From contig JANQRA010000018.1 in the NCBI GenBank assembly GCA_028284765.1, forward strand, positions 1-64,000: a stretch of 64,000 nucleotides of DNA. The letters run 5' to 3'. Below, one piece after another: positions 186-39,964 of this stretch; position 1 is the stretch's first letter; each line of letters begins with the position of its first letter. Source of the stretch: Acidimicrobiia bacterium (GTDB taxonomy: Bacteria; Actinomycetota; Acidimicrobiia; Spongiisociales; ZC4RG35). A program made the position numbers and the translations under genes. Below the pieces are notes generated by a model. The model saw only the letters and a list, made by a program, of their open reading frames with translations, ran no database searches and was not told the origin of the DNA.

Positions 186-447
186 GTGGGTGTACGCGCC
201 ACCAAACGGGGAACAGCCAACCGACAACACCAACACGAAGTCAACAAATGGAACTCCACCAACCAACGACCCGGCGAGCAGAAGTTCCGAGAAACCATGC
301 TCCCCGGCCTCCAAACCATCAGCCTCCGAGCCATCTCCGAAGCAACCGGCCTATCCCTCGGCTACTGCTCCTTCATCAAACGAGGGGTCAAGATTCCACA
401 TCCACGTCATTGGCCGGGAGCGCGCCCTCTCCACCACCCTCCGGTGA
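186..447 (+). pseudogene. Truncated C-terminal fragment of a divergent casposon-type Cas1 (HTH tail)
   Basis: KRGTANRQHQHEVNKWNSTNQRPGEQKFRETMLPGLQTISLRAISEATGLSLGYCSFIKRGVKIPHPRHWP aligns without gaps to the C-terminal tail of the Cas1 at 4644-6146; frame shifts after PHPRHWP and no Cas1 catalytic domain is present. Confidence 0.75.
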
Positions 448-750: not shown

Positions 751-782
751 GGGAAGAGAGATAGGCGAACCAAAAACCGGAA
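751..782 (+). repeat. Left terminal inverted repeat (32 bp, perfect)
   Basis: Exact reverse complement of 14437-14468. Confidence 0.97.
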
Positions 783-846
783 TCCATCGTTGAGGCCTAA
801 TAGTGCCGATCACGACTGACCACCAAGGCTCTGGCAGACTGGCGGA

Positions 847-3567
847 GTGAAGCAGATATCGGTCGCCGATCCGGAGGTCTTCGTACTTGCCGATGACTCC
901 CAAGAGAAGGGGCGGCTGTTTGAAGACTTCGTTGCGCTCTGGCTAGCGGGGATGGGCTTTGAAAAGCCAACCACCGCCAACCTCAGGATTACCGCGAATG
1001 GCATCGAAGTCGATGTTCAAGCCACTCATCGTCTGACTCGCGAGCGATTGGTCGCTGAATGCAAGGCGTACAGTTCGAACCTCCCGGCCTCGGATCTGAC
1101 CTCGTTCTACGGCAAGCTCCAAGTGCTCCGCTTCGAGAAGCCCGACCTCCGCGGCTTCTTTGTGGGCCTTCCTCGTCTCACCGCTGAGGGAGAGGAACAG
1201 GCGGGAGTCATCGAAAGCAAGGACGCGGGATTCCGGTACATCCGGGCTACCGATCTGACCGCCATTCTGGAGGAGCAGGGGCTCATAGACCCCACACCTC
1301 TCCGTGATGAGCTAATGGTCGATCCAGTGGTCGTCATCTCACGGGATGGCCTGTACACAGCCGCCCGGAAGATCGATCCGGAGACCCGGCAGGCGATGTC
1401 CATTGCTGTGTGGGGTTTCGACCCGGTACCAGAGTCGGTGTTGCGGGCTATTCGAGAGTCGAAGCTTCCGGGACCTCTGCAGGTCGCTCCCCTTGGATCT
1501 GGCCATGCCCAGCCAACCGATCACCCTGTTGAGGTGCCAACGCTCGTTCAGGTTGCGGCAAGTACGAGCGACTTTGAGTACCAGCTCCCGGCCGCCCCGA
1601 AGTTCTTCGTGGGCCGCCGTGAGTTGATTCACTCGTTGAACGAAGAACTCTCGGCGAGCGGGTCGAGCGTCGTGGTTCTCAACGCCCAATCTGGGTGGGG
1701 GAAGAGCAGTCTTGCACTTAGGGCAAGCTCAGAAACGGGCAAGCTCGGCGGTGTTGCCCTCGTTCTCGATGCTCGAACAGCTGCAGGCCCGGCTTTCGTC
1801 ACCGCAGCCTTGGCGGAACTCGCGAGTCGAGCAGTAAAGGCGGGACTGATCTCCCTACCGTCAAACCCAGTGTTCGCGACGATCCAATCAAGCGTCAACA
1901 CCCTGAAGGCATCGGTTTGGAATCGAACGGGTCCCTTGTTGTTGTTCTTCGATCAGTTCGAGAATGTGTTCAGAGACATCGCCCTGACCCAAGCCTTTCG
2001 CGATCTCGCCCTTCTCGTAAAGGACCTCAACGCCCCGCTCAAGCTCGGCTTCGCCTGGAAAACGGACCTCGTCGGTTGGACCGAAGGGCATCCTTATCAC
2101 CTCCGAGATCAGATCCGAGACTCGGGTAGCGTCATGCAACTCGGACCGCTACGCGCCAATGAGATCTCGACTCTCCTGAACCGTCTCCAGAAGGTTATCG
2201 GGCAGCCCCTGACTCAAGACATGCGAGCGCGACTCCGGGAGTACTCCGCTGGGCTCCCTTGGCTCTTCAAGAAACTCGCTGGACACCTCATCGAGGAGCT
2301 TCGATCTGGAGCCACTCAGGAGCAGTTGCTCGACCAGGCGTTGAACATACGGAGTCTGTTCGACAGCGACCTGGCTGTTCTGTCGCCTCATGAATACGAC
2401 GTGCTGAAGACAATCGCGCGCTCTGCGCCGGTCCCGGTGTCAGATCTGCTGGACACGATCGATAGCGAGATTCTTCAGTCCCTGCTGAACAAGCGGCTCG
2501 TGGTCCAGGTTGGAGAAAGGATCGACACTTATTGGGACATCTTCCGAGACTACGTCAACACAGGAACCGTTCCTATCCAGGACACTTACATTCTGCGCCT
2601 AAGCCCAACTCCCTCCATGGGAAGGATCCTCGAGAAGGCCATTGAGGCGGGTGGAGTGTTGGAGGTGTCCGATGCGACGGAGCTTCTCGGCACGAGCGAG
2701 CTTGTCGTATTCAATACCGTCCGAGAGCTGCGCCTTCTGCGCATGATCCAATACCAAGCCGGTCAGATCAGGGTCCCAGACGACGTCCTTGAGGATCCAG
2801 AGAGCAGTGAAGCGGCCCTTAGGGAGCGGGCGGCCTCCGCATTGCGCAGACATCGGGCTTATAGCGTGCTCCAGGAGATGCTGGCGCAAGCTGGTGGGGA
2901 CGTGACGGTCACTGACCTTGCAAGAAGGCTCCCACGAGAGTTCCCAGCGGTCGATGTCAAGGAAAGCACCTGGACTACCTACGCCCGGGCGCTGGCTCGG
3001 TGGTTTGAGTACGCGGGCTTGATCGGGTTGTCGGGATCCTTCATTCGATCCGAACCGGAACCAGGGAAGAGGATCCCCATGATCGGTCGGGCGCCGGAGA
3101 AGAAAATGTCGGATTCGTTTCCCACCCGGCCCGCCGGACCGTCAATCGAGATGCTTGCGGCGCTTCTGGGCGGAGATGCGGAGCTGAGCCAAGCGCCTCC
3201 CTCGACTAGAGGACTGAGCGAACTTCGAAAGCTTGGGTTGGTTGAGCGCGACCCGCAGGGTCGATGGAGGGTAAAGCCGACCCTCAGAGCCGAGGATGAG
3301 ATCCCTGGGGAGATCCTCACCTGCCTTACCGAAAGGATTCGCGGGGCCCCTGACGCGCTTGCCGCTCTCAGAAGCAACCCCAATGTCAGCCCCTCTGAGC
3401 TTGGAGAGATTCTTGAAGACGCCCAAGAGGGGGAATGGTCGACGTCGACCAGAGAGCTATATGGCAAGAACTTTCGATCCTGGGCGAGGGCCGCCGGAAT
3501 CGACACAGGGAGGAAGGGGCGAAGGCCCGCTGCACCGATTAATCCACCGGACCGGGCGCTCTTCTAG
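847..3567 (+). CDS. PD-(D/E)XK (Mrr-like) nuclease fused to STAND/AAA-type NTPase and C-terminal region; putative defence protein
   Basis: N-terminus GRLFEDFVALWLAGMGFE...GIEVDV...LVAECKAY resembles Mrr-like endonuclease motifs; FVGRRELIHSL...NAQSGWGKSSL (Walker A) and GPLLLFFDQFENVF (Walker B). Confidence 0.75.
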   Translation: MKQISVADPEVFVLADDSQEKGRLFEDFVALWLAGMGFEKPTTANLRITANGIEVDVQATHRLTRERLVAECKAYSSNLPASDLTSFYGKLQVLRFEKPDLRGFFVGLPRLTAEGEEQAGVIESKDAGFRYIRATDLTAILEEQGLIDPTPLRDELMVDPVVVISRDGLYTAARKIDPETRQAMSIAVWGFDPVPESVLRAIRESKLPGPLQVAPLGSGHAQPTDHPVEVPTLVQVAASTSDFEYQLPAAPKFFVGRRELIHSLNEELSASGSSVVVLNAQSGWGKSSLALRASSETGKLGGVALVLDARTAAGPAFVTAALAELASRAVKAGLISLPSNPVFATIQSSVNTLKASVWNRTGPLLLFFDQFENVFRDIALTQAFRDLALLVKDLNAPLKLGFAWKTDLVGWTEGHPYHLRDQIRDSGSVMQLGPLRANEISTLLNRLQKVIGQPLTQDMRARLREYSAGLPWLFKKLAGHLIEELRSGATQEQLLDQALNIRSLFDSDLAVLSPHEYDVLKTIARSAPVPVSDLLDTIDSEILQSLLNKRLVVQVGERIDTYWDIFRDYVNTGTVPIQDTYILRLSPTPSMGRILEKAIEAGGVLEVSDATELLGTSELVVFNTVRELRLLRMIQYQAGQIRVPDDVLEDPESSEAALRERAASALRRHRAYSVLQEMLAQAGGDVTVTDLARRLPREFPAVDVKESTWTTYARALARWFEYAGLIGLSGSFIRSEPEPGKRIPMIGRAPEKKMSDSFPTRPAGPSIEMLAALLGGDAELSQAPPSTRGLSELRKLGLVERDPQGRWRVKPTLRAEDEIPGEILTCLTERIRGAPDALAALRSNPNVSPSELGEILEDAQEGEWSTSTRELYGKNFRSWARAAGIDTGRKGRRPAAPINPPDRALF

Positions 3568-3741
3568 ACGATGCGTGTGGACTTCCTGGCTGCTTCGCGG
3601 GGCCCCTCGCCGTTGACGGAAAGTGGGCCCGATCGAAGCATCGATGAACTGCCGACCCGTACACAACGGCTCCTGTGTGGCCACAGCCGGGCAGTCGCGG
3701 CTACGTGTCTACGCTCGTACGCGAGCTCCAAAGGGTGAGAC

Positions 3742-4509
3742 TTGGCAGGTCTCGATTACAAGGGTTTTGAGGTCGATGACGACACGTCGATTTGGCGGTA
3801 CATGTCAGTTGACCGCTTCGAATCCTTGCTCGCTGAGGGCCTGTACTTCGCTGCTGCCGCGCAGTTTGACGATGCGTTCGAGGGGGCTATCACTGAAGCT
3901 GAGGAGACTCGTCGTCAACTGGAGGCCGAGCGTATGTATCCCGAGGACGGCGAAGCCCGGGATTGTGTGGTCAAGCAGCTTTCGGGAGCCTTCGAGGATC
4001 TCCGCCGTATGACAATGCTTAGCTGCTGGCATGAGTCGACTGGTCACGAAAACGTCGCAATGTGGGACCGCTATGTCGCTCCGGACACCGCTGGAGTCGC
4101 TGTGGTCTCGACGGCACACCAACTTAAGGCATCTCTTCTCCCCTTCCGACTTGCCCCCGACTACGGGGAGGAGCCGATCGTCGTCGGGCGAGTGCGCTAC
4201 ATCGACTACGCGAACGAAACGATGGACGACCGAACCATGCTGGGGATCTTCATGCACAAGCGGATCGAGTATCGGGATGAGCGCGAAGTCCGGGCCATAC
4301 TCTCACTTCGCATGGCCGATGAATTCGGGGTAGCCATACCCAATGGCGGGGCCTTCGTAGACGTTGATCTCGCTGTGTTGATATCTGAGGTACGGCTGTC
4401 ACCAAGCGCCAAGCAGGTTCACGAGGAGCGGGTTAAGGCCATGATCGCCGAGTACGACCTCAACTGCGGCGTTGCGAGATCCTCGCTTTCTAAGAAGCCG
4501 ACCTACTAG
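3742..4509 (+). CDS. DUF2971-like protein
   Basis: WRYMSVDRFESLLAEGLYFAAAAQFDDAFEGA N-terminus and SCWHES...MWDRY pattern typical of DUF2971. Confidence 0.6.
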   Translation: MAGLDYKGFEVDDDTSIWRYMSVDRFESLLAEGLYFAAAAQFDDAFEGAITEAEETRRQLEAERMYPEDGEARDCVVKQLSGAFEDLRRMTMLSCWHESTGHENVAMWDRYVAPDTAGVAVVSTAHQLKASLLPFRLAPDYGEEPIVVGRVRYIDYANETMDDRTMLGIFMHKRIEYRDEREVRAILSLRMADEFGVAIPNGGAFVDVDLAVLISEVRLSPSAKQVHEERVKAMIAEYDLNCGVARSSLSKKPTY

Positions 4510-4643
4510 TTCGCAGGCGACCCACCAAGACTCGGCTTCGTCGCTTGGTGTTTGGGTACACGAGGGAGATGCCGCTCCCCCGGAGCCTCCGTGGCCAGGG
4601 GTTGGGTCGTCAGAATGGTCAGCGCCAACATCGCGCACCGTCC

Positions 4644-6146
4644 TCACTCCTGGTTGTGCAGTCCAGACACGGCGAGGTCAGCCAACACAGGCCAGTGGCG
4701 CGGGTGTGGGATCTTGATGCCTCTGCGGATGAAGGAGCAGTAACCAGGGGTGAGACCGGTGGCCTCGGCCATATCGGCTACGCGCACACCTCGGAGGCCG
4801 GGGAGGATGACCTTTGTGAAGACTTTGGGATCTGGGCGGTCGTTCTCTTCGTTCCATGTGGCGACGGCCCTTTGGTGTCCACTGTTGGTGGTGCCTCTTC
4901 TACTGGCTGCGGTGCCTCCGTGGGCTGGGTCGACACCCGCGTTCCTCAACTCGGAAAGCTTGCTTAGTCGTGCAACACCTCGTTTGGCGTCACGGCATGA
5001 GTCGCAGAGCTTCCGAGTCTCGGTCGTGGCCTGTCCACATTCGAGACAATGAGTCCTGACCGGAACGTCCGATGGTGGTGCTGGACTTCGGGGCTCGGGA
5101 CGTCGGTTGTTCTGGGTTAGGTGTGTGTCTTTGTCTGCTCCTCTGGTGAGGATGCGGATGGCTTGTTCGATGTTGGGTGCGACTAGGTCGTACCAGGCAC
5201 CCATGGTCTGGGCGAGCTGGTGGGTGAGGGGTGGGTTGATTCGTGTGACGCCACTGCGGGTCTCATTGAAGTCTCCAGCACGGAATGTGTGCCCTTCGAG
5301 GAGGTCGAGGAGGTAGGTGTCGACGTCGGGTCGGATGGTCTCCATGATGTCGAGGGCGAATGAGGCTCGCATCCGCTGGTCGAGGTGGAGGATGCCGAGT
5401 CCGGGGTCGAGGCCTGCGGCTTGGCTGGCGAGAATGGTTTCTGCTTCGAGGAGTGCGTATAGGTAGTTGAGCAGCGCGTTGGCGGGGTTGATAGCGAGCC
5501 GTCCGCCGGTGCCGAAGTTGGAGCCTCGGGTACCGAATAGTTTCCAGTGGTCGGGCACTCGTTTCTGATGCCGGGTGACGAAGCTGACCGGAAGGTCTGC
5601 CCACGCCCGCCAGTAGGTGCGTGCTGCATGGGCCTCGGCAAGGCGCAGGCTGTCGAGTGCGTCGAGAGCGTCCAGCCGGTCTCGATGGTCGCTGATGTCC
5701 GCGGCGGCCCCCGAATCGGACCGTTCAATCAGATCCCCTTGGCCTGTGAGCTTGCGGTCAAGGATCCACCGGGTCAGGGCAATGCCTGTCTGATTGGTGG
5801 CGGCCAGGGCTTGGGCTCGTCGCAGTTCGGCCTTCTTAACGCCGAGAGTTCCAGTGGTCGCGAGGATCGTGCCGTCACGGTCGAGTTGGAGGTAGCCGAC
5901 CTTGGCGTCGGTCATCCAGCGGAGAGCCTCGAAGGTGACGAATCCGGTGTGCCCGAGAACAACGAGTCGCCGGAGGCTGCCGGTGGCCTTGTGGAACCGT
6001 TGTTCTCGCCGGTGTGAGCCAATGCCGTCGGCGACGACAAGATGCTTGTTACGGACATGTACTCGAACACCGAATCCATCGGCGACGTAGACACCTTGTA
6101 CGGGTTCTCCTGCGACCGGGTTGCGGTCGATATCGTTGGACTGCAT
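4644..6146 (-). CDS. cas1: Cas1-family integrase (casposase) with C-terminal zinc ribbon and HTH
   Basis: NPANALLNYLYALLEAETILASQAAGLDPGLGILHLDQRMRASFALDIMETIRPDVD keeps the Cas1 E/H/D(E) catalytic signature; N-terminal beta region VRNKHLVVADG...VVLGHTGFVTFEAL; tail CLECGQ...CDSC plus HTH. Confidence 0.92.
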   Translation of the reverse strand: MQSNDIDRNPVAGEPVQGVYVADGFGVRVHVRNKHLVVADGIGSHRREQRFHKATGSLRRLVVLGHTGFVTFEALRWMTDAKVGYLQLDRDGTILATTGTLGVKKAELRRAQALAATNQTGIALTRWILDRKLTGQGDLIERSDSGAAADISDHRDRLDALDALDSLRLAEAHAARTYWRAWADLPVSFVTRHQKRVPDHWKLFGTRGSNFGTGGRLAINPANALLNYLYALLEAETILASQAAGLDPGLGILHLDQRMRASFALDIMETIRPDVDTYLLDLLEGHTFRAGDFNETRSGVTRINPPLTHQLAQTMGAWYDLVAPNIEQAIRILTRGADKDTHLTQNNRRPEPRSPAPPSDVPVRTHCLECGQATTETRKLCDSCRDAKRGVARLSKLSELRNAGVDPAHGGTAASRRGTTNSGHQRAVATWNEENDRPDPKVFTKVILPGLRGVRVADMAEATGLTPGYCSFIRRGIKIPHPRHWPVLADLAVSGLHNQE

Positions 6147-6186
6147 GCGGAAGCTCCGTTTCCGTGTGCCATGCCCCCGGACCGCT

Positions 6187-6232
6187 GCAACGGTTGCGGG
6201 GGCCTACTCAATTGCTAGACCAGAAAACTGGT
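6187..6232. promoter_or_regulatory. Palindromes upstream of cas1: GCAACGGTTGC (6187-6197) and ACCAGAAAACTGGT (6219-6232)
   Basis: Short dyads in the 100-bp gap upstream of cas1. Confidence 0.35.
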
Positions 6233-6246
6233 TCTGACCTGGCAGT

Positions 6247-6813
6247 TTAGCCGACTGTACCCGGCCTGATTGTGCGCTGCCGGGCGTAGAGGGCGTGGAG
6301 GAAGAGGTCGAGCATCTGTCGGTTGGTATGCGGGTACTGGCTGCCGCAGCGTGGGCAGGTGAACTTCCAGCGGAGCGGCCACGGCGACCCGACGTTCGGG
6401 TTCGTTTCCAGGCTGATGTCCCCGTCTCCGGTCATCGCCCACTCGATCGGTTGTTCGAACTCCTGCTTCCACTCCAGGTCGGGAAAGCTGAGGTCGCCTG
6501 CTCCACCCTGGATCGGTGGTTCCGCTACCAGAGGTCGACCGAGCCTCTGTGGTGATGCTGGCGGCACTTCTCCGGCTCGGACTCCTTTCCGGTGGACCCG
6601 TTTCGGGCCAGGGGCGATACGCGCTCCAGAAGTGTGGAGAGCCCAGTATGCGATGGTCGTCTTGCAGCGGTCCCTTTGACACTGATATGGAAACGGATAG
6701 GCAGCCCGGTAGGGGTTCAGCAGCTCGTTCAGCTCCGGGTCGTCGACCAGGTTCCCCTCCCTCGTCTCCAGGCTACGGAGGTAGTCGAGAGCGTCCTTGA
6801 CAGTATTCACCAC
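6247..6813 (-). CDS. Hypothetical zinc-ribbon protein (casposon-encoded)
   Basis: CQRDRC and CPRCG Cys pairs; co-oriented with cas1. Confidence 0.6.
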   Translation of the reverse strand: MVNTVKDALDYLRSLETREGNLVDDPELNELLNPYRAAYPFPYQCQRDRCKTTIAYWALHTSGARIAPGPKRVHRKGVRAGEVPPASPQRLGRPLVAEPPIQGGAGDLSFPDLEWKQEFEQPIEWAMTGDGDISLETNPNVGSPWPLRWKFTCPRCGSQYPHTNRQMLDLFLHALYARQRTIRPGTVG

Positions 6814-6840
6814 GTCCCGCGACGATATGCGGCCAAGTCA

Positions 6841-6865
6841 TCTCGCCACAACAAGAGTGGCGAGA
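6841..6865. promoter_or_regulatory. Inverted repeat TCTCGCCAC-N7-GTGGCGAGA in the divergent intergenic region
   Basis: Perfect 9-bp arms between the 6247-6813 (-) and 6936-7223 (+) ORFs. Confidence 0.5.
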
Positions 6866-6935
6866 ACGTTGCAGAGGTCCATCGTCAAACGTCCTCCACG
6901 GTCCACCCCCAGCGGGGTGAGGCCCAGGAGGCCAC

Positions 6936-7223
6936 GTGCCCAACAGCAAAGACAGGCCCGGGTTCTACACCCGGCCAATGGCAGTCGACGGTGACACCGA
7001 CTTCATCGAAGTCGACAACCCTGCAGTTGCAGATCAGGCAACCGAGATATTCGCTACTCAATGGGATTACATCCACGGGTACGCCGATGAGGGGGACCTG
7101 AAAGGACTACCCGCAATGTTCGCAGGACGACGCGTAGTCCGCGATCCGGACACCCTCGAGGAGCTGGGCTGGACTGGAGCCTTCGATGTCGAAGAGCTCT
7201 ACCGGTACCTGTACGGCGAATGA
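6936..7223 (+). CDS. Hypothetical small acidic protein
   Basis: 95-aa ORF co-directional with and abutting the HNH and polB genes. Confidence 0.5.
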   Translation: MPNSKDRPGFYTRPMAVDGDTDFIEVDNPAVADQATEIFATQWDYIHGYADEGDLKGLPAMFAGRRVVRDPDTLEELGWTGAFDVEELYRYLYGE

Positions 7224-7543
7224 GCTTCTGTCAAGCCTGCAATCGCCGAGGAACCTGGCAGGGTCACCACCCCACCGGCAGGAATGCACCGGGCGAGTAC
7301 TTCGACCCCGAGTTCACAGTCAATCTGTGTCACAACCATCACACGTTGTGCCACGACGACTGGCATACCCTCGGCGTTGCCAACGCCCCTGCCGGCGCCA
7401 CGCGTCAGCAGGAGGTAGAGCTTCGGCTCCGTCGTCTCGCAGCGACGTTGGCTCGACTCGACCGCGGCAAGAACATCCTTCTGGGAGATCTAGCCAGCGT
7501 TCTCGTCGACTGTGCGGACGACCTCAGTTCTCCACTCGACTAG
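7220..7543 (+). CDS. HNH endonuclease
   Basis: CQACNRRGTWQGHH...EFTVNLCHNHHTLCHDDWH HNH-type Cys/His pattern; overlaps the preceding ORF by 4 nt. Confidence 0.8.
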   Translation: MSFCQACNRRGTWQGHHPTGRNAPGEYFDPEFTVNLCHNHHTLCHDDWHTLGVANAPAGATRQQEVELRLRRLAATLARLDRGKNILLGDLASVLVDCADDLSSPLD

Positions 7544-10500
7544 GTGGAGTTCGAACCACTAGTGACGGCAGTCCGGGTGTACACCACCCGGACCCGTCGT
7601 CCCAAGACCAAACAGATGCAGCGACGGCGAACGAAAAGACGTCCCCCATTCGAGGTGCTGGTCTTCGACACCGAGACCATCAACGAACCAGCACAGAACC
7701 TCCTGCTACTGGTGTGGCGGTTCTACCGAGACGATCCCGACGAACGAGAAGGCAAAACCTGCGTCGAGGTAGGTATCGCATACCCCGACCACCTCCCCGA
7801 CACAGACCCCGAGGCGTTCCAGATCCTCGTCGACTACGTCGAGACGCATTCAGCGGAGACTGCGGCTGGTTTCGGCAAGAGGATCCTGTTGTGGTCTGAG
7901 TCGAAGTGGCTTCGCGAGCGGCTCTACCAGTACGGCTACCGGCACCGCGACCGCTGCTCTGTTGTGGGTTTCAACCTCCCTTTCGACTTCGGACGACTGG
8001 CCAGACATTGGTCGCCGGGCCGTGGTCAGTTTCGTGGTGGATGGTCACTAGGCTCTTGGGGGTCCTGGGTTTCGGTTCGGAGGTGGAAGGGCCATCCGTT
8101 TAGACCGCGGCTGAGGTTCAAAGCCATCGACTCGAAACGGACCCTGTTCTCTTGGGGGGGCACCAAGGATCCCGACGATCGGCTCCCAGGTGAGAGAGGA
8201 CGGTTTGTTGACCTGCGGACGCTCGCCTTCGCATTGACCGACCGGAGCCACTCTCTCGAATCTGCCTGTCGAGCCTTCGGTGTTGCCTTCACCAAGGATG
8301 AGGTCGAATACGGCGTCATCAGTCCCCAGCTCGTCGCATATGCCCTCGATGACGTAGCCGCCACCGGTTGGCTGTATCGGGCGTTGCTCGACGAACTCGA
8401 AGAGCACGAAGGCATCGATTTGGTACCTCGCCGTCTCTACTCACCAGCAACGGTCGGTGTCCAGTACCTAAAGGCAATGGGCATCGAAGAGCCGATGACC
8501 AAGTTCGACCTCCCCGACGAGACCCACGGGTATGCGATGAGCGGCTTCTACGGGGGAAGGGCTGAGGCACGCATCGTCCGCACACCCGTCCTCGTCGCCT
8601 ACGTAGATGCAACGAGCATGTATCCCACGGTCAACGCTCTCCTGGGCACCTGGGACCTCCTCACCGCTGCCGATCTTGAACAAGCCGACGCCACCGACCG
8701 AGTGCGACGTCTACTCGCCGACCCCGACGACCTCTACCGACAGTGCTTCGACCCCGAGTTCTGGCGGAAGGGAATCGGCGTGACTCTCGTCGAAGTCGAC
8801 CATCCCGACGGAGCCCTTCTGCCGGTGAGAGGCGAATACGACGAACTCTCCGACGGCTACGGGATCGGTCTCAACCCAACCCGCTACGACGGGACCCTCT
8901 GGTACATGCTCCCTGACGTCATCAACGCCACCATCCAAGACCAACAGCCCGTTCCCATCCGGCGAGCCATCCGCATACTCCCAGTCGACATCCAGGACGG
9001 CCTTCGACCGGTGAAGCTTCGAGGCGGCAAAACCATCGACCCCCGCAGCGAGGACCTCTTCACTGCTTTCATCGAGCACCGCCATCAGACCAAGCAGAAC
9101 CAAGACCTCCCAGCCGAGACCCGGCAACGGCTCGACCTGTTCCTCAAGATCACCGCCAACGCCACCGGCTACGGAGCCCTCGCCCGATTCGACCGCCGCA
9201 ACCTCTCCCAACCAGTCGAAGCGACCGTCCACGGACCCGACGACCCCTTCACCATCGAAACGACCACGCCCGAAGATCCGGGGCCGTACACCCTCCCACC
9301 GATCGCAGCATCAATCACCGCAGGAGGGCACCTCATGCTCGGCCTACTCGAACGAGCAGTCACCGACGCCGGAGGCTCGTACGCCTTCTGCGACACCGAC
9401 AGCATGGGCATCGTCACCAGCCTCGACCCGACCCCCCTCCCATGCGAGACCGCCGACGGCACCAACACCATCAACCCCCTCAGCCCTAACGATGTACGAC
9501 GACTACTCGAACTCTTCGAAGCCCTCAACCCCTACGACTCAGAGTTGATCCCACACCTGTGGACGGAAGAACACGACAGCATCAATAACCCGCTCTGGTG
9601 TTACGCCATCTCCACCAAACGCTACGTCCTCTACCGACTCGGCGATGACGGCAGACCAGAGGTCGTCGACTGGTCTGAACACGGACTCGGCCAATACCTC
9701 GACCCAATCGACAAACGAGACGACCAAGGACGCCGCGTCTGGGTCAAGCAGGCCTGGGAGTGGATCCTCAACGGAAACGGCGTACGAGAGGCAATGCCCC
9801 CATGGGCCGACCTCCCTGCCGTCTCCCGGTTCTCCCTCACCACACCAGCCGTCGCTACCTGGTTCACCGGCTACGACCGACGCCAACCCCGACACAAGAG
9901 AATCCGGCCGTCGAGTTTCGGGCTGATCGCACACCCCGACCTCCTCCTCGGCAAAGCCGATGGACGTCAGCCCACAGCGCTGTACAACACAAACAGCGAT
10001 CAGTGGCTCGACCTCGACTGGTACGACCGCAACACAGGCGAACCCATAGACGTCACCACGGCATCCCCCGGTGACCCCCAGCTCTATGAGCACCTGGCAG
10101 AAGGCCGAGTGATGATTCGGACGCTCGGCGATGTGCTCGCCGAGTTCAGGATGCGACCAGAACACAAGTCCCTCGCCCCCGACGGCAGCCCAGCAACCGG
10201 CCGCACCAAAGGCCAACTTCGACGACGTCCCATCGAAGGTGCGCCAGTGCTCACCGACCTCATCGGCAAAGAAGGCAACAACCTCGAAGAACGCACCCTC
10301 GGCATCGGCAACAACGCCGCCGACCATCGCAACCAGTACGGAAACCGAGGCAACCGATGGACGCAACTCGTCCTTCCCGTGCTCCAAGAACTTGGAGCCG
10401 AAGAAATCATGAAGCGCACCGGGCGCGAGAAGTCAGCCGTCTACGAAGTCCTCACCGGCAAAGAGATAAAGTACCGGGGCCCCGCTGTTAGATACCGAGA

Positions 10501-10675
10501 CGTCGCGGTTGACGAGGCACGACGCAGGCTCACGTCTGCGGGAGAGCGAGTACCCAGGAATCCGTTCGGAGTCTTGTATCGAGCTGTCTGGCGAAACAGT
10601 CCGAACTACTCGCTCGGATATCGTCGCGACCATGACAGCGACTGGCATGACGGCTGGTCCGATACCCAGCGATAG
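7544..10675 (+). CDS. Family B DNA polymerase with 3'-5' exonuclease domain and C-terminal HTH-like module
   Basis: ExoI VFDTET, ExoII GFNLPFDFGRLA, ExoIII YALDDVAAT; motif A VDATSMYP, motif B KITANATGYG, motif C FCDTDSMG. GTG start adjoins the HNH stop. Confidence 0.92.
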   Translation: MEFEPLVTAVRVYTTRTRRPKTKQMQRRRTKRRPPFEVLVFDTETINEPAQNLLLLVWRFYRDDPDEREGKTCVEVGIAYPDHLPDTDPEAFQILVDYVETHSAETAAGFGKRILLWSESKWLRERLYQYGYRHRDRCSVVGFNLPFDFGRLARHWSPGRGQFRGGWSLGSWGSWVSVRRWKGHPFRPRLRFKAIDSKRTLFSWGGTKDPDDRLPGERGRFVDLRTLAFALTDRSHSLESACRAFGVAFTKDEVEYGVISPQLVAYALDDVAATGWLYRALLDELEEHEGIDLVPRRLYSPATVGVQYLKAMGIEEPMTKFDLPDETHGYAMSGFYGGRAEARIVRTPVLVAYVDATSMYPTVNALLGTWDLLTAADLEQADATDRVRRLLADPDDLYRQCFDPEFWRKGIGVTLVEVDHPDGALLPVRGEYDELSDGYGIGLNPTRYDGTLWYMLPDVINATIQDQQPVPIRRAIRILPVDIQDGLRPVKLRGGKTIDPRSEDLFTAFIEHRHQTKQNQDLPAETRQRLDLFLKITANATGYGALARFDRRNLSQPVEATVHGPDDPFTIETTTPEDPGPYTLPPIAASITAGGHLMLGLLERAVTDAGGSYAFCDTDSMGIVTSLDPTPLPCETADGTNTINPLSPNDVRRLLELFEALNPYDSELIPHLWTEEHDSINNPLWCYAISTKRYVLYRLGDDGRPEVVDWSEHGLGQYLDPIDKRDDQGRRVWVKQAWEWILNGNGVREAMPPWADLPAVSRFSLTTPAVATWFTGYDRRQPRHKRIRPSSFGLIAHPDLLLGKADGRQPTALYNTNSDQWLDLDWYDRNTGEPIDVTTASPGDPQLYEHLAEGRVMIRTLGDVLAEFRMRPEHKSLAPDGSPATGRTKGQLRRRPIEGAPVLTDLIGKEGNNLEERTLGIGNNAADHRNQYGNRGNRWTQLVLPVLQELGAEEIMKRTGREKSAVYEVLTGKEIKYRGPAVRYRDVAVDEARRRLTSAGERVPRNPFGVLYRAVWRNSPNYSLGYRRDHDSDWHDGWSDTQR

Positions 10676-10683
10676 AGGCTTCA

Positions 10684-12369
10684 GTGGTCGAGTTGATGGA
10701 ACATCTAGGGACCGCCCTGTCCGGCGAGGCGATTGGTGAGCCCGGCACCATCGAGACTGTGCGAGAACACCTCTCCAAGCTACGAGCGGCCGACGTGATA
10801 CAGACAACCTCCAAGATCATGATGGTCCTGGAGTCGGTTGCCACAGAGGACCCCGAGTCTCTACAGGTTCGCCTAGCGAAGGAGCTCTTCCCGAGCAGCG
10901 TGCAGGACGAACTCCTCGAGATGCTCTCCAGGTCAGCTGCCGAGGGAGGGGTAGACGTACTCTTCTATCCACAACAGCTCATCAGTCTGCAGAAGCTGGC
11001 TAACGCGGTCTGCGAGGAGGGCCCGCCGAACTCTTTCGACGAATACCGACTCTGGAATCACTTCCTTGTTGCTGCGGCCCAGATCGCTGATGTCGCCAAT
11101 CTTTTCTCAAACTGGCCCAAGCTCTCCAGCCCTATCACTGATGAAGAGAGGCGTTCGCTTGCTGTCTTCATGTTGAGGAACGCTGAAGCCAATCGCCTCG
11201 CCTTCTATCGCGCGATAGCTGGTCGGTCTTTCGTGATGTGGGTGGACCGGCAATTGGATTGGCCCGACGATTTACCAACGCCAGAAGAGTTCGTGGAGGA
11301 GGAGTTCGGACTCGAACTGGGTCAATTCATGGCGATTTGTCTTGCACCGGCGCTCATGCGTACCACTGTGACTGAAGCTGAGCCTTCGGAGGCACCGTTC
11401 GACCCCTCCGTCTACTTCCAGAACACCTCGGTCCCGGTCGAGGCCGTCGAGGCGGTCCTTGAAACCATGACATTCCCGATGGGACTTCCACCAGAGGTAT
11501 TGGACCAGCCTGGAACCTACTGGAATCACACCGACGTCTCGACGCGCCCCTATTTCGTAGCGTCCGATAGCCTCCTGGTCCCCGGTTCAGTGACGCGTGC
11601 CTTCGAAAGGGGCACAACCGGGATCTTCTGGATGCTCCACGAGAAGGTGAGGGCGGAAGGAGATGTTCAACCTCTCACCAATCACTTCGGCCGCATCTTC
11701 GAGGACTACGGACTGAGGCTGATCGAGTCGGTCGCCCCGAAAAACGCCGTTGTCCAGAGGGAGACCGAATACCTGTGGGAGAACAACACCTTGCTATCGG
11801 TGGACTGCCTGATGTCCACGTTGGGCCAGAAAGCACCAGCTCGGGTATTCGTCGAGTTCTCCACCATTCGACCATCCCAACCTCTGTTCGATGAAGGGGA
11901 TATACAGAGTTTCGACGGCTACCTGGCCCGCATCGTTGACAAGATGAAGCAGCTTGATCGGTCAATCCAGCACCATCAATCCGGTGCGTTTGAAGTAGTG
12001 GACGACTTCGCAGGCGCCGACGATGCGTATCTTCCGGTGCTGGTCATTGACGAACCGTTCTTCTGGTCACCATGGCTCCGAGATCTGGTGACTCAAGCGC
12101 TGGCCGATCTGAAGCTCTTCCGAATTGGAGCGATCGCTCAGCCCACCGTTTGTCACATCGGCGAATTCGAGAACTTCTGCGCGCTGATCGAGAAGGGACA
12201 CAACCCCGCCGACGTTCTACTCGGATACGTGGCATCAGACCGAGGAGAACCGTTGAAGGCACATCTACACCGTCACTACGGGGAACTCGGAGAGCCCGCA
12301 TTGGTGACTACTGGTTTCGACGTTCTCTTTGAGCAGCTTGTTCAGAGCCTCGGATTCCAGAGCGGGTAA
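10684..12369 (+). CDS. Hypothetical protein (561 aa), casposon cargo
   Basis: Long ORF directly downstream of polB, inside the TIRs; family not recognised. Confidence 0.7.
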   Translation: MVELMEHLGTALSGEAIGEPGTIETVREHLSKLRAADVIQTTSKIMMVLESVATEDPESLQVRLAKELFPSSVQDELLEMLSRSAAEGGVDVLFYPQQLISLQKLANAVCEEGPPNSFDEYRLWNHFLVAAAQIADVANLFSNWPKLSSPITDEERRSLAVFMLRNAEANRLAFYRAIAGRSFVMWVDRQLDWPDDLPTPEEFVEEEFGLELGQFMAICLAPALMRTTVTEAEPSEAPFDPSVYFQNTSVPVEAVEAVLETMTFPMGLPPEVLDQPGTYWNHTDVSTRPYFVASDSLLVPGSVTRAFERGTTGIFWMLHEKVRAEGDVQPLTNHFGRIFEDYGLRLIESVAPKNAVVQRETEYLWENNTLLSVDCLMSTLGQKAPARVFVEFSTIRPSQPLFDEGDIQSFDGYLARIVDKMKQLDRSIQHHQSGAFEVVDDFAGADDAYLPVLVIDEPFFWSPWLRDLVTQALADLKLFRIGAIAQPTVCHIGEFENFCALIEKGHNPADVLLGYVASDRGEPLKAHLHRHYGELGEPALVTTGFDVLFEQLVQSLGFQSG

Positions 12370-12388
12370 AGGAGGGTGGCGCAGCAGG

Positions 12389-14314
12389 TCAAAGGCAACG
12401 TCTCTCCCACTCAATGAGTAGATCCAATGAACTGATGTCAGCCTGAGCGGGCGTCCTCCCCGCCAGGCGAGAGGTGCGGATTCTTTCGGCCGCTCTCACC
12501 GATTCAGCCATTTCGTCATCGCCGAGATCATCAGCGAGCCGCGCCAAGCTGTCGAGCCGCCCACCACCATCGGTCGCCTGGCTACGGGCCTCCCTCGCTT
12601 TCATCGCGATCCACTTCCTAACCTGAACCCCGCTGAATATGGGTGCTGCGTCGTAAGAAGAACGGACGCAGGCTTTGATGAACGCCACGTCTCGGTCCCA
12701 CGAATTCTCCGAGCGATCTCGATCTCGAAATGCCCCAACATCCACTGTTAGCTCATGAGGATCTCCGCCTGTGGATCGGATGACCAACGTCTCGACGTCA
12801 TCGCCTAGGTTCGGAAGGCAGGCACCACCGAGGGATGTCGGGTTGGCCGGAAAGAACCCGGAACCCGTAACTTCGACGGTTGCGCCAGCATGAGACACCC
12901 GGACATCAGTCCAACCTGACGCGCCAAGGACGACACCTAGTTTCTGTGACTCGCTGAAGTCCCAAGCCTCTGCTCCCGGTAGGTCGGCAGCCGCGATACC
13001 GGCCGTGACGAATGCACAGGTCATCGCGAAGTGGAGTGCGAGTACCGTTTCCATCCCCGCTAGCACGGAGTCCAGGAGCTGCGCGAGCGACATCTCGGCG
13101 TCTTCTGCACGACCTGAGGTAAACAACACTCTGTTGCCATCCAAGGTGTACTTGTTATGGGCATCCGCATCGCGTAGGGCTGCTTGCAGACCCTCGACCA
13201 ATCGACCGAAACCTGCCTGCCGCATTTGGCCGATAGACACGTTCGGGTCCTTGTTGGTCAGTCGCAAGATTGAACGTCCCTTCGCAATTGTGAGTAGAGG
13301 GGTCACAAGCGGCCGGGCGATTGGCTCGAACAGCCGAGCCCCGAGCCGCACCGTCGCCCTTACCTCGATCCTCTCATTCGTAGCAGCGGCACTCAAGGCG
13401 GCTGCTTCGGTCGCGGCATCTCGAAGTTCAGCGACGCTCGCCATGTAGTCATCGAGCCATTGGTCCGTTTCCAGGAGTGAGACGAGCTGATGGCTGTCGG
13501 AGTCCAGGATCTTGTACGCCGCCTCCGCCTTAGACCACAGAGCCTCTCTGTCGTAAATAACCGAAGCCACAAAATCCGTGACAAGCATGCCGATCCCGAG
13601 TCCTGGATCTGTTGGATGCTTCCCCGTTACTCGCTTGAAGAGCGCCAGACCGCGACTATCAAGATCGACTATGTCGACGGCCTCCCTCGAGGCGAACGCA
13701 GCAGCGGCTACTGACGGGAGGACATCCAATGGGTCCAACGGGCTGTCATCGATCTGGTTCCAATGATCAAGAAGGCTTGAGTATCCGGCAATGCCTTCAG
13801 CTGCTCGGTCCAGGGCACTCTGGGCGTCGCTTGAGAGTCGCTCCGCCTCGGGAACCGTATCGGCTGACAACGTCTCAATGTATCTGGAGGCAACCTCCTC
13901 GATGTCCCCGACGGTCGCCTGGAGGGCCTGCCAGAAGCTCAACCACGGCCTCAACCGGGTCGACGAGTGAATTGCGCTGGCGAAGTTACGGAAATCACCG
14001 AGCGCTGAGCGCAGTCGAGTGGCCCCAGCTGGCTTGCCGGAGGCGATGAGCTGGAACGAGGTCATCAGGTCGTCGAGCAGCGCTGAGCACCTATCAAATA
14101 ACTGCCCGTCCGGTTCGACCTGGATGGATACGTCAGCCGGGTAGCCAGGATCGCAAGGTGCAGCGTGCCAGATGAGCCTTCGTCGACGTCTGACATGATC
14201 ATCAACGATCTCCTCATCCTCTTCGCAACCGCAACGTGGCTCTTCTGCAAAGCGTGTCTCGCCGCATACGTCGCACGTAACCGCTACAAACTCAAGTCTG
14301 AACTCATGGGTCAT
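12389..14314 (-). CDS. Hypothetical protein with N-terminal Cys-rich knuckle (casposon cargo)
   Basis: Long ORF (track 12389..14347), probable start MTHEFRLEFVAVTCDVCGETRFAEEPRCGC; convergent with the 10684 ORF. Confidence 0.65.
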   Translation of the reverse strand: MTHEFRLEFVAVTCDVCGETRFAEEPRCGCEEDEEIVDDHVRRRRRLIWHAAPCDPGYPADVSIQVEPDGQLFDRCSALLDDLMTSFQLIASGKPAGATRLRSALGDFRNFASAIHSSTRLRPWLSFWQALQATVGDIEEVASRYIETLSADTVPEAERLSSDAQSALDRAAEGIAGYSSLLDHWNQIDDSPLDPLDVLPSVAAAAFASREAVDIVDLDSRGLALFKRVTGKHPTDPGLGIGMLVTDFVASVIYDREALWSKAEAAYKILDSDSHQLVSLLETDQWLDDYMASVAELRDAATEAAALSAAATNERIEVRATVRLGARLFEPIARPLVTPLLTIAKGRSILRLTNKDPNVSIGQMRQAGFGRLVEGLQAALRDADAHNKYTLDGNRVLFTSGRAEDAEMSLAQLLDSVLAGMETVLALHFAMTCAFVTAGIAAADLPGAEAWDFSESQKLGVVLGASGWTDVRVSHAGATVEVTGSGFFPANPTSLGGACLPNLGDDVETLVIRSTGGDPHELTVDVGAFRDRDRSENSWDRDVAFIKACVRSSYDAAPIFSGVQVRKWIAMKAREARSQATDGGGRLDSLARLADDLGDDEMAESVRAAERIRTSRLAGRTPAQADISSLDLLIEWERRCL

Positions 14315-14436
14315 TTGCGCTGGACCGTCCTGCTGGCCGATTCTCACCTTGTACGGTGCTCATCTGAGCCTCAGCGTAGGTCTGGGGCACGACAGTTCTC
14401 ACAGAGGTCAGCCGAATTGCGGCCCTCGGGAGCGGT

Positions 14437-14468
14437 TTCCGGTTTTTGGTTCGCCTATCTCTCTTCCC
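14437..14468 (-). repeat. Right terminal inverted repeat (32 bp, perfect)
   Basis: TTCCGGTTTTTGGTTCGCCTATCTCTCTTCCC is the exact reverse complement of 751-782. Confidence 0.97.
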
Positions 14469-14482
14469 CCCGCTGACTTTCC
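14469..14482. repeat. Target site duplication, right copy (CCCGCTGACTTTCC)
   Basis: Identical 14-mer directly outside each TIR. Confidence 0.95.
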
Positions 14483-14501
14483 ACAGAGGGCTGAGCCCCC
14501 T

Positions 14502-14507
14502 TATACT
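14502..14507 (+). promoter_or_regulatory. Putative -10 (TATACT) of the tRNA-Trp promoter
   Basis: TATACT 21 nt upstream of the tRNA; the possible weak -35 (TTTCCA/TTCCAC) lies at the TSD edge. Confidence 0.5.
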
Positions 14508-14528
14508 TGGACGACCCGCGAACCCCCT

Positions 14529-14606
14529 AGGGGTGTAGCTCTAATTGGCTAGAGCGCCGGTCTCCAAAACCGGAGGTTGGGGGTTCGAGTCCCTCCACCC
14601 CTGCCA
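14529..14606 (+). tRNA. tRNA-Trp (CCA anticodon, encoded CCA tail)
   Basis: AGGGGTG/CACCCCT acceptor stem, CTCCAAA anticodon loop, GGTTCGAGTCC T-arm; precedes secE. Confidence 0.95.
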
Positions 14607-14635
14607 GAATATTGGTAGTAGAGAACTGATCACTT

Positions 14636-14968
14636 ATGACTAACAGACAGATGCGTCGCCTCCAGGAAGCGGAGGAGCGGCGCCGCAAAAAGGAAGGTGG
14701 CGGCAGTGCAGCCGAAAGGCGCGCCGCAGCCATGCAGAAGAGAGGCGCTCCCGACACCGGTGAGCGTGTTGGTTTCTTTGGGCGTATTCGCAACTACCTC
14801 CACGAGGTGCGAGTTGAACTGCGCAAGGTCACCTGGCCGACCCGCGACCAGATGGTCGCTTTCACGGGTGTGACTTTGATCACCACGATTGCTCTCACCG
14901 GAATTATCTTCGGGTTTGACGTGCTGGCGAAAGAATCAGTGCTCTGGCTAGTTGGGCAGAGGGGCTGA
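14636..14968 (+). CDS. secE: Preprotein translocase subunit SecE
   Basis: C-terminal LHEVRVELRKVTWPTRDQMVAFTGVTLI; upstream of nusG. Confidence 0.93.
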   Translation: MTNRQMRRLQEAEERRRKKEGGGSAAERRAAAMQKRGAPDTGERVGFFGRIRNYLHEVRVELRKVTWPTRDQMVAFTGVTLITTIALTGIIFGFDVLAKESVLWLVGQRG

Positions 14969-15621
14969 TGGCTGACGTAGTCGAGACCACCGAAGTAGAA
15001 GAAGCTGTCGCAGTAGTCGACGGCGAAGATGCTGTTGAGGAAAAGCCTGTAGTCGAGGCTCCGAAGCCGACTTCTCCCTACGACCTTCCCGGCGACTGGT
15101 ACGTCATCCACTCGTACTCCGGGTACGAGAATAAGGTGAAGGCCAACCTCGAGACCCGTATCTCCTCGATGCACATGGAAGACCGCATCTTCGAAGTGCA
15201 CATCCCCATGGAAGACGTCGTCGAGTTCAAGAACGGCAAGAAGGTCACGGTCCCCAAGAAGGTCTTCCCCGGATACATCCTCGTTCGCATGTCCCTCGAC
15301 GATGACTCCTGGTACGCCGTGCGGAACACCCCTGGCGTCACTGGATTTGTCGCCGGCAACGCCCAGAAGCCGACCCCGCTCTCACGACGTGAGGTCGAGC
15401 GCTTCCTCGGAGTTCAAGAGGAAGAGGAGAAGGGCAAGCCGCGCTTCAAGCCGGACTGGGATGTGGGCGAGCAGGTTCGTGTCGTCACTGGCCCTTTCGC
15501 GGACTTCAACGGCACCATCGAAGAACTCAACGTCGACCAGCAGAAGGTCGTCGTGTTGGTCAACATCTTCGGTCGGGACACTCCGGTCGAGCTTGGCTTC
15601 GAAGACATTCAGAAGAACTAA
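14968..15621 (+). CDS. nusG: Transcription termination/antitermination protein NusG
   Basis: WYVIHSYSGYENKVKANLE...FPGYILVRM...TPGVTGFV, KOW. Confidence 0.97.
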   Translation: MADVVETTEVEEAVAVVDGEDAVEEKPVVEAPKPTSPYDLPGDWYVIHSYSGYENKVKANLETRISSMHMEDRIFEVHIPMEDVVEFKNGKKVTVPKKVFPGYILVRMSLDDDSWYAVRNTPGVTGFVAGNAQKPTPLSRREVERFLGVQEEEEKGKPRFKPDWDVGEQVRVVTGPFADFNGTIEELNVDQQKVVVLVNIFGRDTPVELGFEDIQKN

Positions 15622-15633
15622 TAGGAAAGCCCA

Positions 15634-16062
15634 ATGGGTAGGAAACGACTCGTAACAACACTGAAATTGCAGCTGCCCGCAGGGCAGGCCACACCCGCAC
15701 CGCCGGTGGGTACCGCTCTCGGTCCCCACGGTGTCAACTTGATGGACTTCGTCAAGGCATACAACGACGCCACCGGTGGACAGCGTGGACAGATCATCCC
15801 GGTCGAGATCTCGATCTACGAAGACCGCTCCTTCACCTTCATCACCAAGACGCCTCCGGCAGCAGCGCTGCTCCGTCAGGCGGCTCGGGTGGACAAAGGC
15901 TCCGGTGAGCCCAACAAGGAGAAGGTCGGCTCGGTCACCAAGGCACAGGTCAAGGAGATCGCCGAGATCAAGATGCCAGACCTCAATGCCATCGACATCG
16001 ATGGCGCGATGAAGATCGTGGAGGGAACGGCCCGCTCGATGGGAATCACCGTCTCGGGCTGA
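15634..16062 (+). CDS. rplK: 50S ribosomal protein L11
   Basis: [33 protein letters not shown]. Confidence 0.98.
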
Positions 16063-16071
16063 TTCAGACCT

Positions 16072-16118
16072 TTCTGTGTCAGATAGCTGCCCTATAGGGT
16101 CGGTTAACTGACACAGAA
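16072..16118 (+). other. rplK-rplA intergenic hairpin
   Basis: TTCTGTGTCAG ... CTGACACAGAA, 11-bp arms, with nested CCCTATAGGG (16090-16099). Confidence 0.6.
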
Positions 16119-16221
16119 CGAACAAAACAACATCTAGGTGGGAGGCCGATGGGCCCGAGTTCGATCTCATCGAACTCGAAGCTGATGTCATCAGCCGTTG
16201 ACCACAAGGAGAACGCCAAAC

Positions 16222-16932
16222 ATGGCAGGAAAGAAGTACCGCGAGGCTTCAGGCCGGTACGACAAAGAGAACCGCTACGAGGCAAGAGAAGCACTCGAGC
16301 TGGTGAAGACCCTCTCGTCGGCGAAGTTCGATGAGACCGTCGAAGTCGTTTACAGCCTCGGCATTGACCCCAAAAAGGCTGACCAGTTGGTCCGTGGCAC
16401 CGTGTCGCTGCCTCACGGCTCCGGCAAGGACGTCAAGGTCGCCGTGTTCTGCCCGGCAGACAAAGAGTCGGAAGCCAAAGAGGCAGGCGCCGACATCGTT
16501 GGTGGCGCAGAACTCGTGGAAGCCCTTCAGGGTGGACAGGAGCTCGACGCCGACGTCGCCATCGCCACCCCGGACATGATGTCCGAAGTCGGAAAGCTGG
16601 GACGTGTCCTCGGTCCTCGGGGCCTCATGCCCAACCCGAAGTCCGGCACCGTCACCCCTGACGTAGCCAAGGCCGTCTCGGAGTTCAAGGCCGGGAAGCT
16701 CGAATACCGCAACGACCGCTACGGAAACGTCCACGTTGCTGTCGGCAAGGTCAGCTTCGATGTTGATCAGCTTGTCGGCAACCTGGCTTCGCTAACCGCC
16801 GAGATCGATCGTGCTCGGCCGGCTGGCGCCAAAGGGCGTTATGTCCGTGGCATGACTGTCAGCTCGACGATGGGCCCTGGTGTCAAGGTCGATACTGCCG
16901 CCATCGAAGACTTGGTCGCCCAGGCTCAGTAG
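16222..16932 (+). CDS. rplA: 50S ribosomal protein L1
   Basis: [55 protein letters not shown]. Confidence 0.97.
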
Positions 16933-39868: not shown

Positions 39869-39964
39869 TGGCGGAGGCGGACGGGAATCGAACCCGCCAG
39901 AGACAGGATCTGCCTCTCACCGGTTTTGAAGACCGGGGGACCCACCAGGCGTCCGTACGCCTCC
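39869..39964 (-). tRNA. selC: tRNA-Sec (selenocysteine, anticodon TCA)
   Basis: Minus strand GGAGGCGTACGGACGCCTGGTGGGTCCCCCGGTCTTCAAAACCGGTGAGAGGCAGATCCTGTCTCTGGCGGGTTCGATTCCCGTCCGCCTCCGCCA: long extra arm, TCA anticodon, encoded CCA. Confidence 0.96.

Follow-up and report, generated by a model that had tools for sequence, protein, structure and literature searches.

The window, the whole stretch of 64,000 nucleotides that was analysed, contains a casposon of 13,718 bp (~13.7 kb) at positions 751-14468. The element carries a Cas1-solo casposase and a family B DNA polymerase (PolB), is bounded by terminal inverted repeats (TIRs) and is flanked by a 14 bp target site duplication (TSD). It is a casposon by each of these features, as had been recognised in an earlier, sequence-only reading of this DNA. 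The casposase (500 aa; 4644-6146, reverse strand) matches Pfam PF01867 at 5e-36 and ends in a C-terminal CxxC...CxxC ribbon and a helix-turn-helix (HTH). Of the solved structures, it best matches the Methanosarcina mazei casposase, 6OPM, both by sequence profile (5.5e-36) and by predicted fold (model mean pLDDT 72.8). The 1043 aa PolB (7544-10675, forward strand) has the motifs DATSMYP, KITANATGYG and CDTDSM in its translation. As a single sequence PolB has no Pfam match; it has homologues in the other casposons found here and a weak profile match to PolB structures (9e-5). It is preceded on the same strand by a small ORF of 107 aa (7220-7543) with HNH-like Cys/His spacing, judged by eye, and no Pfam match.

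The cargo at 847-4509 is of defence type. It consists of a 906 aa protein with an Mrr-type nuclease domain and an nSTAND NTPase, both from Pfam (847-3567, forward strand), and a 255 aa protein matching the candidate defence model PDC-S31 (3742-4509, forward strand; PADLOC, 1.5e-16). The ORF list adds cargo ORFs of 188 aa (6247-6813, reverse strand), 561 aa (10684-12369, forward strand) and 652 aa (12389-14347, reverse strand), each without a family match. There is no Cas2 among the tested element proteins (Pfam) and no CRISPR array among the listed repeats of the window, and a CRISPR-Cas adaptation module was rejected because neither stands beside Cas1. Elsewhere in the window, ARAGORN calls a tRNA-SeC gene (selenocysteine, TCA anticodon) at 39869-39964 on the reverse strand.

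In a phylogenetic tree, the casposase of the window groups with that of M. mazei and other casposases, apart from most of the sampled CRISPR-type Cas1. One clade, with support of 0.99, holds seven casposases, these being that of the window and those of G012, G099, G614, G458:C36, G600 and G561. The C-terminal CxxC...CxxC ribbon and an HTH-like end are common to all seven, with invariant residues in the alignment. Casposons were sought in samples of genomes from the same order, class and phylum and from related groups, many of the host genomes being drafts. A scan of a genome collection with two Cas1 sequences returned only the relative in G012 (JACZUI010000042.1), and no relatives of the casposase were present in plasmid, phage and viral collections. 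The 94 exact matches of a TIR 14-mer in viral contigs are presumed to be chance, since that collection holds no casposase relative. No TIRs were found on the truncated contigs of G012, G099 and G348.

The left TIR (751-785, forward strand) begins GGGAAGAGAGATAGGCGAACC and is of the same type as the GGGATAGGAGATAG ends of related casposons. Its 35 nt are 97% complementary to the right TIR, its inverted repeat partner at 14434-14468 on the reverse strand. The TSD, CCCGCTGACTTTCC, was found by a TSD/TIR scan as an exact 14 bp direct repeat on both sides of the casposon, at 737-750 and 14469-14482. A 15th base, the C at 736/14468, is ambiguous between the TSD and the end of the TIR. To the left, outside the element, a remnant of a second casposase C-terminus (189-422, forward strand) has 53% identity to residues 411-488 of the resident casposase, and is slightly more like the casposase of G012. 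An older tandem casposon may possibly have stood to the left of the present one, judging from this fragment. Tandem insertion there would be proved by a TIR next to the left TSD; none was found in the window, nor was a second TIR pair found in its genome.

The tRNA-Trp promoter at the insertion point

The order to the right of the casposon is TATACT, tRNA-Trp, secE and nusG. A tRNA call places tRNA-Trp (CCA anticodon) at 14529-14606 on the forward strand, and a consensus scan identifies its −35 hexamer as TTTCCA (14478-14483) and its −10 hexamer as TATACT (14502-14507), both also on the forward strand. The scan, made independently, gives the TTTCCA-18-TATACT promoter (14478-14507) 9 of 12 consensus matches, with 4 of 6 in the −35, and a mean of 0.0 promoter-like sites was found in shuffled sequence. 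The right TSD closes with TTTCC, the first five bases of the −35 hexamer. The TSD therefore ends within the box (TTTCC|A), with the sixth base, A14483, belonging to the native flank and completing the hexamer. From the end of the TSD there are 19 nt to the −10. This edge, with the TSD ending after −35 base 5 and the −10 following 18 bp on, is the arrangement that marks the proposed promoter-targeted clade described below. The core promoter is rebuilt on the right side, so that the exchanged part is only the DNA upstream of the −35, which is now TIR. The other TSD copy, distal to the promoter, remains joined to the left TIR.

These positions agree with those of the sequence-only reading, which had placed the right TSD at 14469-14482, 19 nt before TATACT, with the tRNA starting at 14529. 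The proposal that the TSD regenerates the −35 side also holds, since bases 1-5 lie in the duplicated 14 bp and stand next to the native base 6. It was right, too, in naming the promoter rather than the tRNA 3' end as the target, the TSD being 46 bp upstream of tRNA-Trp and having no overlap with its 3' end; the cut, which it had put upstream of the promoter, is instead within the −35 hexamer. The inverted repeat CAGCCC...GGGCTG that it noted around the cut is present. It was rejected as a target signal, as at least one such inverted repeat occurs in 44% of shuffles of the empty site and the relatives lack it.

Thirty tRNA-Trp loci were compared, the window's own and 29 from relatives. The −10 is kept as TATACT or TATAAT in nearly all 30, and most have a −35 of the TTTCCA/TTTACA type ~18 bp upstream of it. 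This conservation indicates that the −35 is host sequence entered by the casposon and not made by the element. The loci of the 29 relatives look like empty sites, with G013 a possible exception. Upstream of tRNA-Trp in that genome (L010), a GGGATATAGAGG-like sequence lies on the reverse strand, 12 bp upstream of the position of the TSD edge. From its sequence, it may be what is left of a TIR of a different type that once stood at this promoter.

An insertion of this form would involve two strand-transfer points 14 bp apart, one between −35 bases 5 and 6 and the other 14 bp upstream. The 14 bp duplication sets −35 bases 1-5 next to the native base 6, the spacer and the −10, and the sequence shows that the core promoter is in this way kept. 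The activity of the promoter would then be expected to be unchanged by the insertion.

Insertion sites of related casposons

The related casposons, for which a TSD/TIR scan gave borders that are exact or nearly so, lie at other genes. In G600, TTGAC|C-18-TATCCT stands in front of CIRCE and groES (the groESL promoter), where the TSD copies differ at a few bases, and most relatives of G600 have a groES promoter of the same form without an element. The leader of thrC is a SAM riboswitch (89.9 bits in L110), and the casposons of G614, G458:C36, G653, G768, G679 and G772 precede it, at TTGAC|A/T-18-TAGACT or TAGAAT. The same thrC-type box with a 17 bp spacer is used in G719:C59, and element-free TTGACA-18-TAGACT thrC promoters are present in G748, G785 and G821. 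As the thrC insertions of several species may be partly inherited, they were counted as one locus. TTGCC|A-18-TATACT is in front of infC-rpmI-rplT (G458:C17) and CTGGC|G-18-TATACT in front of rfbA (G719:C53), gene names in both cases being read from translations; the −35 of the latter, CTGGCG, has 3 of 6 consensus bases. In G561, TTGTC|C matches a −35 and the −10, AATGCT, is weak. The promoter is at the left end of some casposons and at the right end of others. The boxes of the empty tRNA-Trp, groES and thrC promoters of relatives exist without any insertion. At the thrC promoter of G780:C15 (~5129-5894; L139, L268) there is a remnant of less than 1 kb, bounded on each side by a TIR-like end, which from its sequence looks like an internally deleted casposon.

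The tRNA-Trp/secE locus is not, as had been suggested from the window, a preferred one, because the other elements of the clade sit at groESL, thrC, infC-rpmI-rplT and rfbA promoters. Unrelated targets had been taken in advance to mean that there is no site preference. The genes do differ, but within the promoter the insertions agree in position to the base.

At six independent loci (tRNA-Trp, groES, the thrC leader, infC, rfbA and G561), with the register fixed to the end of the TSD, 52 of 72 positions match TTGACA-18-TATAAT. Every other shift, from −12 to +12 bp, gives 10 to 21 matches of 72. Compared with random sites, the single loci have p values of 1e-5 to 1.6e-3, with a Fisher-combined p of 1.1e-18; the TTGACA/TATAAT motif was taken from general knowledge of sigma70, while the TTGAC register and the 18 bp spacing had been noticed in part of the data before this test. 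A TIR-pattern search of one family, blind to the flanks, yielded 15 ends that are taken to be real on account of their inner TIR sequence. TTGAC or TTGCC is at one of the two predicted places in 13 of these (displaced by a base in one), a further end (G719:C53) has the −10 at the exact distance, and one TIR end (G748:C37) fits poorly.

The edge is also reused. A TIR, then a TSD edged by TTGAC or TTGCC, then directly another TIR is the order found in G768, G600 and G719, and the junctions in G157 and G600:C49 are probably of the same type. In G768, tandem casposons (L129 and L130 joined, 13584-16876 and 16891 onward) share one thrC promoter, with a 14 bp TTGAC-edged TSD between them. In M. mazei, too, casposons are known to insert in tandem at a site that is already occupied (PMC10359463). 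A common register at several independent promoters, and tandem reuse of its edge, are thus established by comparison of the genomes.

Proposed recognition of the promoter

The casposon of the window integrated in the −35 box of tRNA-Trp, and it is probable, from these alignments, that the casposase of this clade targets the −35 region of sigma70-like housekeeping promoters. The enzyme would most likely read the site directly. It would recognise 5'-GTCAA where the TSD ends and probably, beyond it, the −10 as well, and its C-terminal zinc-ribbon/HTH domain may be the reader. The TSD edge would stay a target, and further copies would stack in tandem, as is seen in the relatives. The stronger proposal, that the casposase reads the whole promoter, with the −35 at the TSD edge and the −10 19 nt outside as a 'leader' directing Cas1 integration, has about an even chance of being correct.

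The transcription machinery could instead guide an enzyme with little sequence preference, if RNA polymerase holoenzyme or sigma region 4 were to bend or expose the −35. The five clear loci are all promoters in which a −10 is correctly spaced rather than bare TTGAC, as this would predict. The cut, however, is within the −35 hexamer, which sigma would be expected to cover. Purified archaeal casposases, moreover, choose their sites in vitro (PMC6614799, PMC6977970), and guidance of this kind is considered unlikely.

A casposase that recognises only GTCAA at the TSD edge might also give the observed pattern if promoters were hit because they contain TTGAC and insertions within genes were lost by selection. 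Of the whole signal, the pentamer is indeed what is matched most exactly. Of 2,872 TTGAC-like pentamers counted in host DNA, a sample that takes in more than intergenic sequence, only 1% are followed by a −10 at the spacing in question, against 5 of the 6 insertion loci (p 5e-10), which weakens this explanation. The window and G719:C53 also have a poor pentamer but a good −10, and recognition of the pentamer alone is doubtful. That the tRNA-Trp insertion is an accident of a casposon without site preference is very improbable: the A. boonei casposase, if given no target, can insert into a plasmid at random (PMC6614799) and the TTTCCA of the window matches the consensus weakly, but the same register recurs at unrelated promoters, with 52 of 72 matches against at most 21 elsewhere in the register scan.

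The register is absent from three more distant casposons with clean borders, which have at most 5 of 12 matches. The casposon of G458:C24 is just past an apparent tmRNA 3' end and that of G458:C13 just past the end of an ORF. The casposases of these two G458 elements (L104, 17679-19079; L106, 17681-19072) have an N-terminal zinc finger and are without the C-terminal ribbon/HTH. The C-terminal ribbon/HTH is in this way linked to promoter targeting, as a correlation only.

Relation to known systems

The casposon of the window shares with the Family 2 casposons (M. mazei MetMaz and Aciduliprofundum boonei) a Cas1-type casposase, PolB and TIRs beginning GGGATA, the TIR of the M. mazei casposon being GGGATATAGG... 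(PMC10359463). A 14 bp TSD, an edge motif with a needed sequence outside it, and tandem insertion are also common to both. Family 2 casposons overlap tRNA 3' ends and leave the tRNA intact, whereas the TSD edge in the window is in a −35 box upstream of the gene, and unlike theirs its casposase has a CxxC...CxxC ribbon before the HTH. The A. boonei casposase needs CC as the two opening bases of the TSD, together with TCAAATC lying 9-15 bp outside it (PMC6614799). The M. mazei enzyme needs CGCA at its TSD edge as well as sequence located no more than 30 bp outside, and the HTH was proposed as a possible reader of the target (PMC6977970). Read from the same side, the clade of the window has GTCAA at the TSD edge, in place of CC or CGCA, and the −10 ~20-25 bp outside. 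The layout of the target would therefore appear similar in both, with the words changed to those of the promoter.

The bacterial casposons described in 2014 (Streptomyces albulus, Henriciella marina and Nitrosomonas sp. AL212) also have a Cas1-solo and PolB, and were compared by description only. In the available part of that report, ten casposons of the set are intergenic, the known casposon targets are intergenic DNA, tRNA 3' ends and aEF-2, and no promoter or −35 target is described for the bacterial elements (PMC4046053). Casposons are thus known, and no mention of their targeting to the −35 or to promoters was found in the main texts of open-licence papers. Tn7 at attTn7 uses unrelated enzymes, and its target is downstream of glmS, not a promoter box. 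What it shares, in a comparison drawn in the 2014 report, is insertion beside an essential gene without harm (PMC4046053).

The acquisition of CRISPR spacers by Cas1-Cas2 is alike in its related Cas1 chemistry, in a fixed edge beside an outside 'leader' and in repeated insertion at that edge, and differs in that the casposon of the window has neither Cas2 nor array. The promoter of a CRISPR leader reads toward the repeats. The promoter in the window reads away from the element, and the parallel is therefore one of position and not of the direction of transcription.

The targeting of casposons has so far been studied at archaeal tRNA 3' ends. The existence in bacteria of a clade whose address differs and can be defined precisely suggests that the edge motif and the 'leader' can be re-specified in evolution, with the C-terminal zinc ribbon/HTH as a concrete candidate for the specificity module. 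It opens to experiment a question that casposases and CRISPR have in common, namely what in Cas1 or in its partners recognises the leader beside the integration point. If the proposed recognition is correct, this would be a class of transposon with a sigma70-type promoter as its genomic address, cut between −35 bases 5 and 6, at which copies stack. Such an element would be able to enter essential promoters, those of tRNA, chaperonin and translation-factor operons, without destroying them.
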